DNA of 64,000 nucleotides, taken from Candidatus Kuenenia stuttgartensis (GTDB taxonomy: Bacteria > Planctomycetota > Phycisphaerae > Phycisphaerales > SM1A02). The notes beneath the pieces were generated by a model. The model was not told the DNA's origin and ran no database searches. It worked only from the letters and a program-made list of their open reading frames with translations. A program made the position numbers and the translations under genes. The DNA lies in the NCBI GenBank assembly GCA_945902075.1, contig CAMDMA010000019.1:1-64000 (forward strand). Reading direction: 5' to 3'. This document shows positions 1,017 to 4,999 of the stretch, one piece after another; the stretch's first letter is position 1; each line of letters opens with the position of its first letter.

Positions 1017-2663
1017 TTACCGCGCGATCGCTTCCGCGCGAGTCTCTCGCAGCACCGTCACCTTGATCTCGCCAGGGAAGGTCATCTCAGCCTCGACACG
1101 CTTCGCGATCGCCTCTGCGATCTGGAACGCGGTCGCGTCATCCGCCTTCTTCGCGTTGAGGATCACGCGAATCTCGCGACCCGCTTGGATTGCGTGCGCC
1201 TCATCGACGAACGGCTGCTCGCGGGCGATCGCTTCGAGCTGCTCAAGTCGCTTGATGTACATCTCCATCGACTCGCGCCGCGCACCGGGGCGCGCACCAG
1301 AAATCGCATCGGCGGCCATGATGATGGGCGTGTAGGCAGTCGTCGCAGGAATGTCGCCGTGGTGGCCACCGCAGGCGTTGAGCACAGCCTCGCTCTTTTC
1401 GCCGAACTTCTTGAGGAACTCCATTCCGATCGCCGGGTGGCCGCCCTCCATTTCATGATCCATAGCCTTGCCGATGTCGTGCAGGAGTCCGGCGCGTCGC
1501 GCGATCGAGCCGTTGAGCCCGAGTTGGTCGGCAATCATCTGCGAGAGGAACGCAACCTCAATCGAGTGGCGCAGCACATTTTGGCCGTAACTCGTACGGA
1601 AGTGCATCTTGCCGAGTGCCTCGATGATCTTTGGATGAAGCCCCCGAACGTCGGCTTCGACGACGGCGTCGTTACCGACCTTCACGATCTTCTCTTCGAT
1701 ATCGCGCTTGGTCTGCTCGACGAGTTCCTCGATACGCGTCGGGTGAATGCGTCCGTCGGCAACAAGTCGTTGCAGTGCTTCGGCTGCGATCGCTTGGCGC
1801 ACGCGGTCAAAGCATGAGACGCTGATCACGCCCGGGGTATCGTCGACGAGAATGTCGGCACCGGTCGCCTTCTCAATCGCACGAATGTTGCGGCCTTCGC
1901 GGCCGATGATGCGGCCCTTCATATCTTCGCTGGTGATCTTGATGGATCGCACCGTTGACTCGCCGACATTCTCCGCGGCGTAGCGTTGGATCGACATCAG
2001 CGTGATTTCGCGTGCCTTGCCCTTTGCATCGCGCGTTGCCTCGTCAAGGATGCGCTGCCGCAGCGATGCGCCATCATGCTCGCTCTGCTCGCGGACTTCG
2101 GTCATGTAGAGTTCGCGGGCCTCGTCCAAAGTGAGTCCGGAGAGTTTGGACAATGCACCGCGGAGCTCGGTCCGGGTTCGCTCGTTCTCGTCGGTGACCC
2201 GCTTCAGTTCGTCTTCTTGCTTTCGAAGGTCGGCCTCGCGGTTGTCGATGCGCTTCTCGCGGGCGTCGATCGACTCAAGCTTTCGATCGAGGGTTTCCTC
2301 ACGTTTTGCTGCACGCGCAAGGCTTTCATCGAGTTTCGCCTGCGTCGCCTTCGACTCGCGGTCGATCGACGCGCGCTTTTCCGAAGACTGCTTCTCGGCG
2401 GCGAGCTCGACTTCACGGGCCTTCTTTTCGGACTCGCTGCGGATTGCGCCCGCGGTGAGATCAGCTTGCGCCTTGGCGTCGGCGAGCATTCGATCAGCTT
2501 CCGCGCGCGCGGCCTTGATGCCGCGTCCGGAGGCAAATGTGAGGATCACAATGCCAACGACGGCTCCGACAATAAGCGCGATGCCTGCAGCCACAAGCAA
2601 AGTTGCGATTCCGAATTCATCGGAGTTACTCGGGAGTGGATTGGTCTGAAGAAGGATGGGCAC
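1017..2663 (-). CDS. rny: Ribonuclease Y
   Basis: RNase Y is a membrane-anchored endoribonuclease that starts mRNA decay. The protein shows the full family order: one N-terminal membrane helix (about residues 17-43), a long charged coiled coil (about 45-190), a KH RNA-binding domain with GRIIGREGRN (250-259), and an HD phosphohydrolase domain with the metal-binding pair in LLHDIGKAMDHE (His395-Asp396). Length, about 548 residues, is slightly above the usual 510-520. I chose the GTG at 2663 because a GGAGG lies five bases before it. An in-frame TTG at 2675 would place that GGAGG inside the coding region. The gene ends at a strong terminator. Confidence 0.95.
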   Translation of the reverse strand: MPILLQTNPLPSNSDEFGIATLLVAAGIALIVGAVVGIVILTFASGRGIKAARAEADRMLADAKAQADLTAGAIRSESEKKAREVELAAEKQSSEKRASIDRESKATQAKLDESLARAAKREETLDRKLESIDAREKRIDNREADLRKQEDELKRVTDENERTRTELRGALSKLSGLTLDEARELYMTEVREQSEHDGASLRQRILDEATRDAKGKAREITLMSIQRYAAENVGESTVRSIKITSEDMKGRIIGREGRNIRAIEKATGADILVDDTPGVISVSCFDRVRQAIAAEALQRLVADGRIHPTRIEELVEQTKRDIEEKIVKVGNDAVVEADVRGLHPKIIEALGKMHFRTSYGQNVLRHSIEVAFLSQMIADQLGLNGSIARRAGLLHDIGKAMDHEMEGGHPAIGMEFLKKFGEKSEAVLNACGGHHGDIPATTAYTPIIMAADAISGARPGARRESMEMYIKRLEQLEAIAREQPFVDEAHAIQAGREIRVILNAKKADDATAFQIAEAIAKRVEAEMTFPGEIKVTVLRETRAEAIAR

Positions 2664-2826
2664 GCTTGCCTCCAAGCAAAAAGGACTACTCGCCGGGTGC
2701 CTCCTGCACCGGCCCTGCGTGCGCCGAATGTGATCGTCCAGAGAATTCTGCGGTGCTTCAGCTCGTCAGGATCCGGCCGTGATGCCATTGGCAACGGCGT
2801 TCAAATGTCGCCCACATCGCGCATTC

Positions 2827-3013
2827 GCAGGATGTGGGAAGACCCAAGAGGAATCCGACATGCGTCGCATGCCGCCGGTTCCGGGGGTTGTGAAGAGTTT
2901 CGCGCACGGTTCTCACACTGCTGCCCAAACGGGCTTTGTGCTGGATCGATCTATCCCACGCGCGCTCAGGGAGCTTGCGTGAGGGACGGGATTCTTTTGG
3001 GAACCCATCCTGC
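2827..3013 (+). ncRNA. Candidate structured RNA, about 187 nt, class unknown
   Basis: This sits in the gene-free stretch 2664-3166 between divergent rny and the ABC permease. The ends pair: 2827-2834 with 3006-3013 (8 bp), two more pairs after a bulged T2835, then 2843-2856 with 2988-3001 (13 of 14 pairs, three of them G-U). The G-U pairs work only for a plus-strand RNA. Inside the closing helix are hairpins at 2859-2871, 2914-2940 (GCCC/GGGC core) and 2957-2981. No long protein frame with family features is present. It may be a free small RNA or a leader of the permease gene, whose ATG is 154 bases downstream. I see no RNase P, tmRNA or SRP signature. No clear T-tract follows. Confidence 0.45.
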
Positions 3014-3166
3014 AAACGGTCGCGAACGGCGTTGGGCCTATTCGACGAGCCGGGAATGTTTCGGTCGGCTTAGTACCCACGAGGGGTGGCCGCCCGGTCC
3101 GCGTCCGCGGACTTGTGAAGTATCGGTGTCCTGCACGAACTGTCAAGGTAGGATGCGGATCCGCGC

Positions 3167-4999
3167 ATGCCTGCTCTCCTCCACTGGCTTTCAAACCTCC
3201 TCCCAACGAACCCCATTGCGGTCCGCATTGTCTCGGGTGGGTCGAAGCGGTCGCGACATCTTCTACTCCGGGCGGGTTACCTCGCGATCATGATCGCCAT
3301 CCTGCTCATCGGCCTCCTTGGCGGAGAAAGCACGATGAAGCAACTTGCAACCCGTGGGGCAAGCGCGTTCTCGGTCGTCTCATTTGGGCAGGTGGCGTTG
3401 ATCTGCGTGCTCACCCCGATCTTCATGGCGGGAGCGATTGTCCAAGAGGCAAGCCCAAGGACCTGGGACATTCTGCTGACAACGCCGTTGGGAAACCTTC
3501 AAATTGTTCTAGGAAATCTTTTTGGGCGGCTTTTCTTCATCCTCGCACTCCTTTTGTCCACACTTCCGTTGTTCGTGTTGACCCAGTTCTTTGGCGGGGT
3601 CCCCGGAAACTCGATCCTGATGAGCTACTCGATCGCGGCGTCGAGTGCCCTGATCGTGGCAACAACCGCGGTCACGCTCTCGGTGACCCGAAGCGGGGGC
3701 AAGCGCGCGGTACTCGTCTTTTACGCAGCGGTCGTGATGTACCTGTTTGCGACCTACGCCGCCGACGCGTACGCGCGGACCCAGGCCGCGATTGGCGTCG
3801 GCTCGGGGACGACACGCACAACCGTGTTCACTGCTTTGAATCCGTTCCTCGCACTCGAGAGCGCGTTGCGTTCGACCAGTTACGTTCCATACGCCGCGAG
3901 CGACGTGCCTTTTCCTCCGTTGACGCCGATCTACACCAGTCCAGCGACCTCATTTTGCATCATGTGCATCGCTCTGAGCTTTGCGATGGTGCTGTGGTCG
4001 ACGCTCAGACTCCGAGTCATTGGAACACGTGGGCCGCAGGTCATTTGGTGGCGGGCGCTTGTCGGGTCGGGGCCAGGATCAAGCGGCACGCGAGAGTCGA
4101 GGCGCGTCGGGAGCAATCCGATCGCATGGCGCGAGCGCATGCTGCGTACCCAATCGATCGGTGGCCTCTTCGGCCGTTGGGCCTTTCTCGCAATTGGCGC
4201 GTGCGTGGGTTTCGTGCTTTGCGGGCTTCATCGCCAAGGAGTGTTAAACGGGAGCGAAATGCGTTTGGCGCTTCTCGGCGTGGTCGGTGCGGAGATCGTC
4301 GTGGTGCTGCTCACGGCGATCAGCCTGAGCGCAACCGCCGTCAGTCGTGAGCGCGAGGATGGCACGCTCGACATCCTGCTCACGACGCCGATTCAACCGG
4401 GCCCGTATCTCGCGGGCAAACTCACCGGGATCGTGCAATTCCTCATCCCCATGCTTGCGGTGCCGTTCGTCACCCTTGGGTCGGTTGCGATCTATGTAAT
4501 GGCCAACGGGTTTGGCGCGGCACAGGGCGTCATGGTGTCGAGTTCGATTGGCATCGCGACGGTCAACCTTCCACTGATTCTTCCGGAAGGCGCGGTCCTT
4601 GTGCTCGTCGATCTTATCGCGGCCGTCAGTTTCGCGATCATGATCGGTCTGCAGTGGTCGCTCCGCACCAAGGGAACGATCGGCTCTGTGATGGCCGCGA
4701 TCGGCGTGATCGGTGCCATTGGGCTTGTGCTCGGAGCGTGCGCGACAGCATTCGGAGCAAATGTTCCGTATGTCGGCGCTGCGCTTGCGGCAATGAGCCC
4801 GCTCAATCTGCTGTTCGCCACCGTCGATCCAGCAGCTGCGATCCGCGGAAGCCTCGAAAATCCGCAGGCTGCTCGCACAAGCCTTGTCATCGGGACGATC
4901 GGAGCCTCGCTCGCTTTTGGAGCGGCGTGCTTCGCCATGCACTCGACAATGAAGAAGAACTTCATGATGACGGTGCGCCGACTTGCGGGTACCAGTTAG
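3167..4999 (+). CDS. Double-length ABC-2 type transporter permease
   Basis: A 610-residue integral membrane protein. It carries the same permease pattern twice. A first half has TWDILLTTPL followed by a membrane-helix block (about residues 100-150). A second half has EREDGTLDILLTTPI followed by a similar block (about residues 395-440). The motif preceded by an acidic stretch is typical of ABC-2/NatB-like exporters. The two halves therefore look like a tandem duplication that joins both membrane domains in one chain. No ATP-binding subunit is encoded next to it: the upstream neighbour is divergent rny and the downstream gene is a secreted protein. The ATPase would have to come from elsewhere. 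Substrate unknown. Confidence 0.85.
   Translation: MPALLHWLSNLLPTNPIAVRIVSGGSKRSRHLLLRAGYLAIMIAILLIGLLGGESTMKQLATRGASAFSVVSFGQVALICVLTPIFMAGAIVQEASPRTWDILLTTPLGNLQIVLGNLFGRLFFILALLLSTLPLFVLTQFFGGVPGNSILMSYSIAASSALIVATTAVTLSVTRSGGKRAVLVFYAAVVMYLFATYAADAYARTQAAIGVGSGTTRTTVFTALNPFLALESALRSTSYVPYAASDVPFPPLTPIYTSPATSFCIMCIALSFAMVLWSTLRLRVIGTRGPQVIWWRALVGSGPGSSGTRESRRVGSNPIAWRERMLRTQSIGGLFGRWAFLAIGACVGFVLCGLHRQGVLNGSEMRLALLGVVGAEIVVVLLTAISLSATAVSREREDGTLDILLTTPIQPGPYLAGKLTGIVQFLIPMLAVPFVTLGSVAIYVMANGFGAAQGVMVSSSIGIATVNLPLILPEGAVLVLVDLIAAVSFAIMIGLQWSLRTKGTIGSVMAAIGVIGAIGLVLGACATAFGANVPYVGAALAAMSPLNLLFATVDPAAAIRGSLENPQAARTSLVIGTIGASLAFGAACFAMHSTMKKNFMMTVRRLAGTS

Follow-up and report, generated by a model that had tools for sequence, protein, structure and literature searches.

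The Rfam family rne5 is the 5' UTR element of the rne gene of enterobacteria, and this element was reportedly described by Diwa et al. in 2000. A role of the structured rne 5' leader in feedback control is also stated in PMC10989929, which also treats the rne 5' UTR of Synechocystis, where RNase E cuts its own leader in a run of six U. The rne-II motif of Pseudomonadales (RF01756), reported in PMC2864571 as a conserved candidate structured RNA, is tied to the RNase E gene by its name. As for RNase Y, the enzyme of Bacillus subtilis is described in PMC10303841 as lowering the level of its own mRNA, partly by cleaving it within the 5' UTR and early in the coding sequence. In the account given there, the rny leader is 160 nt long, its main cuts lie in an AU-rich 5' stretch, and a strong stem is possible at the ribosome-binding site and looks similar in close relatives. 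The RNase Y of Staphylococcus aureus, according to the mapping reported in PMC4608709, cuts preferentially after a G where the RNA is A/U-rich and has less structure than the sequence around it; the mapped sites include its own transcript.

At the locus analysed here, the minus strand of positions 2827-3013 of the window (the whole 64,000-nt stretch of DNA that was analysed) is very probably part of a structured 5' leader of the rny mRNA. The original prediction had placed there an unclassified 187-nt structured RNA, read on the plus strand and divergent from rny. Its absence from known families has held, since no Rfam match was obtained, while its strand, its ends and its relation to rny proved wrong; the importance given to the neighbouring gene of an RNA-decay enzyme was justified. 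Like rne5, the element would be a structured 5' leader of the gene of a main decay endonuclease, located on the same strand as that gene, which is judged here by sequence. It differs from rne5 by the enzyme family and the phylum, by the lack of any Rfam match, by a long-range helix closing near the ribosome-binding site and by a conserved AUAGAUUGAA segment. It shares with rne-II the status of a conserved candidate structured RNA, whereas the gene, the lineage and the structure are different and the motif does not match the rny leader. The resemblance to both is one of role only, and the rny leader is a member of neither family. With the B. subtilis leader it shares the gene, and that leader is a target of RNase Y (PMC10303841). 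Unlike it, the leader described here is 379-594 nt long within the genus, GC-rich and folded into a domain predicted to be closed over a long range. The likeness to Synechocystis would be that of a decay endonuclease cutting its own leader, with RNase E instead of RNase Y (PMC10989929).

A scan with 4227 Rfam families gave no hit at the gathering score in the whole 64,000-nt window, and the only match at E<=10 in the region 2600-3250 was a snoRNA at chance level. In the same way, 20 relatives scanned at E<=5 gave only two chance-level matches. The region was thus left without a match to 6S RNA, RNase P RNA, tmRNA or other Rfam families, including rne5 and rne-II. The lack of RNase P and tmRNA signatures had been noted originally and agrees with these searches: the RNase P RNA of this genome is on another contig (C9, 262.8 bits), and ARAGORN finds neither tmRNA nor tRNA in 2000-4000. 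The suggestion of a divergent 6S RNA found no support, since 6S RNA (RF00013) gives no match at E<=10 in 2600-3250. The only 6S match of the genome, a possible divergent 6S RNA, is located on contig C13 (35224-35351, minus strand) with 29 bits, below the cut-off of 46.4. For Planctomycetota, a search of the open-access literature turned up neither a description of a structured rny leader nor a study of the RNase Y of this phylum. The element is proposed as a candidate new RNA family, an apparently undescribed structured leader.

Position and strand of the rny leader

The locus includes the following features.

1017-2663, minus strand: rny, encoding RNase Y (TIGR03319 RNase_Y, 584 bits, over the cut-off; KH and HD domains)
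2661-2663, minus strand: GTG start codon of rny
2668-2675, minus strand: Shine-Dalgarno region of rny, UUGGAGGC, with GGAG near the start in 16/16 genomes of the genus
2664-3113, minus strand: putative rny 5' leader, about 450 nt, its 5' end being placed from the promoter
3119-3146, minus strand: predicted promoter, with -35 TTGACA (3141-3146), a 16-nt spacer and -10 GATACT (3119-3124)
3167-4999, plus strand: ABC-2-type permease gene (PF12679), a divergent neighbour outside the RNA

The gap between rny and the permease gene measures about 500 nt and contains the stretch 2827-3013, in agreement with its original placement. The order permease (plus), gap, rny (minus) is kept in all 16 genomes of the genus, own genome included; the gap ranges there from about 415 to 626 nt and is mostly variable in length and letters, with fixed blocks. 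The start proposed for rny in the list of open reading frames, a TTG at 2675, falls within the ribosome-binding region; the GTG at 2661-2663 is preferred, and a [GA]TG start follows GGAG at the aligned place in 16/16 genomes. A TTGACA-N16-18-GATACT-like promoter is present beside the divergent permease gene in all 16, and the sole promoter-like site in 2500-3300 is the one on the minus strand that points towards rny. After this promoter, the fixed blocks of the minus strand are, in order, a hairpin GUCCGCGGANGCGGAC, then GGCUCGUCGAACAGGCC and GCCGUUCGCGACCGUUUGCAGG separated by other sequence, GGGAUAGAUCGAUCCAGCAC, CUGGACGAUC, GGUGCnnnnnGCACCCGGCGAG, and GGAG followed by GTG or ATG. The leader is thus delimited by an upstream promoter, conserved blocks, and a ribosome-binding site and start at its 3' end, all found in the 16 same-genus genomes. 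An upstream promoter, a conserved structure, a 3' ribosome-binding site and a constant downstream gene are general features of cis-regulatory leaders, and all four are seen here.

Among the 181 family genomes searched, all 16 of the genus contain the long genus block exactly, and none of the remaining 165 does. Searched across public contigs, the exact pattern of the block gave 39 loci, among which 14 have rny, 13 the permease and 12 both, that is 15 in total; the remaining 24 were taken for chance because they lack both genes and mostly come from other phyla. Two public MAG contigs, one titled Limnohabitans (L050) and the other Candidatus Kuenenia (L079), carry the genus-specific rny leader, and these titles look wrong. 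To judge by isolate names, several of the 15 same-genus public records come from lakes or ponds.

The plus-strand helices that had been proposed for 2827-3013 are present as written: 2827-2834 pair with 3006-3013 (8/8 Watson-Crick), 2836-2837 with 3005-3004, and 2843-2856 with 2988-3001 at 13 of 14 positions, three of which are G-U. The plus strand of this stretch folds at -85.2 kcal/mol, when 200 dinucleotide shuffles give a mean of -69.6 (z -3.52; 0/200 as good). The claim that such a fold would be stable only if the plus strand were transcribed does not stand, as the minus strand also folds well over these 187 nt (-72.6 kcal/mol; z -2.72; 1/200 shuffles as good); the fold alone therefore cannot tell the strand. 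Comparison with 14 of the 15 same-genus relatives (one near-duplicate excluded) indicates that these helices are private to this genome and located mostly within variable parts of the leader. The outer 8 pairs are formed in 47/106 cells and the next 2 pairs in 7/22 cells, whereas the helix with 13 of 14 pairs has no aligned letters in 11 of the 14 relatives and 12/31 cells paired in the other three. Averaged over these helices, the probability of pairing on the plus strand is 0.00 in 14/14 relatives, against 0.55-0.71 here. This absence of covariation, which the original prediction had itself given as decisive, refutes the plus-strand fold.

Predicted minus-strand structure in the genus

Minus-strand helices were derived from base-pair probabilities averaged over 15 leaders of the genus, L013 being omitted since it is nearly identical to L012, while the fold of whole leaders was compared with 40 shuffles each in all 16 genomes. 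The mean z of the leader fold is -2.92 on the minus strand and -1.75 on the plus strand, the minus being lower in 13/16 genomes and the plus better in 3/16. The consensus of the 15 leaders consists of nested long-range helices, P1 to P7, and of a hairpin beside P3. Its predicted elements are listed below from the 5' end of the leader.

3097-3112, minus strand: P1 hairpin GUCCGC/GCGGAC, at the 5' end, 90/90 cells paired
3062-3096, minus strand: P2 helix, 3089-3096 with 3062-3069, 112/120 cells and 8 double changes
3043-3050, minus strand: 5' strand of P3, GCUCGUCG, closing the leader domain by pairing with 2688-2695
3023-3044, minus strand: local hairpin CGAAY-A-GGC/GCC-GUUCG, predicted in 15/15 leaders and in competition with P3, which it overlaps
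3013-3023, minus strand: 5' strand of P5, GCGACCGUUUG (compare ACCGUUU in the family), pairing with 2721-2730
2957-2981, minus strand: hairpin before the motif, arms 2977-2981 and 2957-2961, seen in the minimum-energy fold
2941-2957, minus strand: hallmark motif GGGAUAGAUCGAUCCAG, whose 3' part (2941-2951) is the 5' strand of P6
2923-2934, minus strand: P7 hairpin GCCC/GGGC, weak (43/60 cells, 44 on the plus strand)
2732-2741, minus strand: 3' strand of P6, CUGGACGAUC, 131/150 cells with 2941-2951
2721-2730, minus strand: 3' strand of P5, 124/134 cells
2696-2710, minus strand: hairpin GGUGC-AGGAG-GCACC beside P3, 75/75 cells
2688-2695, minus strand: 3' strand of P3, CGGCGAGU, 12 nt upstream of the Shine-Dalgarno region

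Over the 15 sequences, from which the structure itself was derived, 719 of the 779 cells of the consensus helices pair on the minus strand and 675 on the plus strand; when the partners are slid by 1-3 columns as a control, 28-47% are paired. Double changes were counted in 20 cells, whereas 500 shuffles, which ignore relatedness, averaged 7.5 and never exceeded 15. The helices differ in what they tell about the strand. P3 is paired in 118/120 cells on the minus strand and in 90/120 on the plus strand, and it favours the minus strand because 29 of its pairs are G-U, whereas P6 (131/150 on each) and P7 do not separate the strands. The local hairpin is kept in one relative (L017) by GGAC/GUCC and here by a G-U pair that exists only on the minus strand. 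Two genomes have A-U in place of G-C in the hairpin 2696-2710, both sides having changed.

Sequestration of the Shine-Dalgarno sequence as a conserved feature was considered and rejected: GCUUG-GAGG-CAAGC could form here and was not seen by eye in relatives. A terminator-like hairpin with a T-rich tail is located inside the variable part of the leader (2856-2874, minus strand), one such site being found against a chance expectation of 0.5, and none was found at the end of P3 or at the ribosome-binding site of rny. In the near-identical leaders L012 and L013, tandem TTGAGCGTTCAT-like repeats enlarge the variable domain.

Occurrence of the motif, promoter and P3 beyond the genus

Stretches of up to 1.6 kb upstream of rny were obtained from 80 further genomes. 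Within the family these represent 27 other genera; 20 genomes belong to other families of its order, 5 to other orders of its class and 28 to other classes of the phylum. The motif AUAGAUY was relaxed to this form after inspection of the first 40 regions, which for this reason are not a blind test. It is found 130-700 nt from the 3' end of the fetched stretches in 24 of the 27 genera (dinucleotide-shuffle expectation 0.68; antisense 1) and in 13 of the 20 genomes of other families (expected 0.50; antisense 0), so that it is absent upstream of rny in 3/27 and 7/20, respectively. It is found in 2/5 genomes of other orders (expected 0.30; antisense 0) and in 1/28 of other classes (expected 1.30; antisense 0). 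The genus string GATAGAT, fixed beforehand, is present in 21 of the first 40 regions, and 3 of the 7 same-order regions fetched after the relaxation have AUAGAUY. The longer form AUAGAUU(G/C)A occurs in 16/27 genera and 10/20 genomes of other families (expected 0.04 each) and in 0/33 genomes outside the order.

The motif usually comes after two predicted hairpins, which directly precede it in most of 35 folds examined by eye; the two-hairpin stretch has a median z of -1.7 over 38 motif-bearing sequences. A promoter of the form TTGAC(A/C)-N15-19-NAT(A/T)NT, chosen after viewing mostly the same regions, points towards rny in 16 of the 27 genera and away from it in none (expected 0.06). Furthermore, ten genera have a P3-type helix CGACAC.../...GUGUCG in which 15 of 122 pairs are G-U; these favour the minus strand because they would be A.C on the plus strand. 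As the P3 strands are nearly invariant in the family, it is G-U exchange rather than double change that can mostly be seen. Taken singly, the P3-type helix reaches p<=0.05 in only 7 of the 38 motif-bearing sequences and the P6-type helix in 4. One rny leader (L096) contains two GATAGATT copies 33 nt apart (1277 and 1310, 0-based, script orientation). The divergent permease/rny pair was seen in 28 of 40 upstream regions (L087-L126) and in 26 of the 27 family genera, which makes it a stable neighbourhood.

Whether the element accompanies rny or the permease was addressed by pattern searches. In 181 genomes of the family, CGACACGGG-N50-80-ATAGATT gave 13 matches from 11 genera (reversed control 1), 12 of them in sense in the permease/rny gap and 1 elsewhere. 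The P3 partner CGUGUCGU was found about 155-175 nt downstream of the motif in 4/4 further loci (L181, L183, L187 and L189), among which only L181 is a new genus, the other three being congeneric with earlier ones. In 251 genomes of the order, ACCGTT-N26-56-ATAGATTGAA gave 9 matches (reversed control 2). Five of them come from one family (f5), in which no permease was found near rny, and lie upstream of that gene in 5 of its 8 genomes; the 4 other matches have no rny in the fetched flank. The sense matches beside rny and the matches of this family without permease suggest that it is rny, and not the permease, that the element accompanies. In a genome from another family of the order (L169:1319-1387), ACCGTT, two hairpins recognized by eye and ATAGATTGAA occur without rny in the fetched flank, which could be a second site or chance.

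Possible functions of the leader

The leader probably regulates rny in cis, as far as can be judged from its conservation and position, and chances are even that RNase Y itself is the molecule sensed, by analogy with the enzyme of other bacteria. The explanation as a whole, that of a cis-acting and probably autoregulatory leader with a landing or cleavage site for RNase Y, is the one that we favour with some reserve. While the identity of the leader is well supported, we infer its mechanism as follows. Transcription would start near 3113, from the sigma-70-type promoter that adjoins the divergent permease gene. The leader RNA would then fold into a domain closed by the long-range helix P3, with a 3' strand ending 12 nt before the Shine-Dalgarno sequence, and within this domain hairpins would be followed by the segment (G)AUAGAUY. 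RNase Y in excess could bind or cut this G/A-U-rich segment beside the hairpins by means of its KH domain and HD active site, and this would destabilise the rny mRNA or close its start site. The position of GAUAGAUUGAA beside hairpins seems to fit the cleavage preference of the S. aureus enzyme. Since simple cleavage would not require such conservation, the motif points to specific binding rather than to cutting alone.

The local hairpin that uses the 5' strand of P3 is conserved too, so that the domain may alternate between two conformations. For the family, local folds show GCCC/GGGC closing over CGACAC in 8/10 sequences, and longer stretches fold into P3 in 9/10, both by eye. Two such competing predicted helices are compatible with a switch and do not prove it. 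A more elaborate proposal, which we regard as doubtful, is that of an RNase Y sensor acting throughout the order: the local hairpin would form first and the long-range form afterwards, and RNase Y at the exposed AUAGAUUGAA would decide which form persists, and hence between translation and destruction of the mRNA.

The same observations could be explained if the leader controlled rny in cis in response to another signal, be it a small molecule, temperature or a different RNA-binding protein, with the local hairpin and P3 as its two states. Mutually exclusive helices on one segment, predicted in the genus (15/15 leaders for the hairpin, 118/120 cells for P3) as well as in the folds of the family (8/10 and 9/10), would suit such a sensor, as would the letter-level conservation of AUAGAUUGAA, expected of a binding site. 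The terminator-like site at 2856-2874 would also go in this direction, but it belongs to the variable part and its rate (1 against 0.5) is that of chance. Since the element is mostly associated with rny, whose product controls itself in another phylum according to PMC10303841, and since the two patterns searched disclosed no other class of genes sharing it, we consider this sensor unlikely. The leader could also be, or give rise to, an independent trans-acting RNA, processed from the rny transcript or ending before rny. Such an RNA would be consistent with a long, compact and closed domain and with the 4 of 9 ACCGTT-N26-56-ATAGATTGAA matches that have no rny in their flank, including L169 with its two hairpins seen by eye. 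These 4 matches are nevertheless close to the reversed-pattern control (2), 12 of the 13 family matches adjoin rny in sense, and no terminator-like site was found at the ribosome-binding site, which is where P3 ends in the genus, so that a trans-acting RNA appears quite improbable.

Two other explanations have very little probability. The conserved blocks could be DNA elements, promoter and operator sites, and the folds a product of GC-rich composition; the promoter blocks are indeed conserved as DNA and GC-rich sequence folds easily, but this would not account for the strand-specific G-U pairs, for the double changes or for the results of the dinucleotide-shuffle controls. Likewise, a plus-strand RNA of 187 nt, which might be a divergent 6S RNA, has in its favour the fold of this single sequence (z -3.52) and its three G-U pairs. 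Against it are the null pairing probability in 14/14 relatives, the lack of a 6S match at E<=10 and a sole promoter-like site in 2500-3300 that faces the opposite way; furthermore, beyond the genus the promoter form occurs only, and the motif nearly only, in sense to rny. As promoter, helices and motif are conserved reading towards rny on the minus strand, they indicate a 5' leader of the rny mRNA rather than a divergent RNA.

If the leader of rny is such a cis-acting element, AUAGAUUGAA beside hairpins provides a defined site at which recognition by RNase Y can be tested, a recognition that could not be predicted in the B. subtilis work described in PMC10303841. The order-wide sensor RNA, if true, would parallel the RNase E leader as a structured element of independent origin. 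More generally, if a structured rny leader is conserved across an order of Planctomycetota, leader-based control of decay enzymes would seem to have arisen with RNase Y as well as with RNase E.
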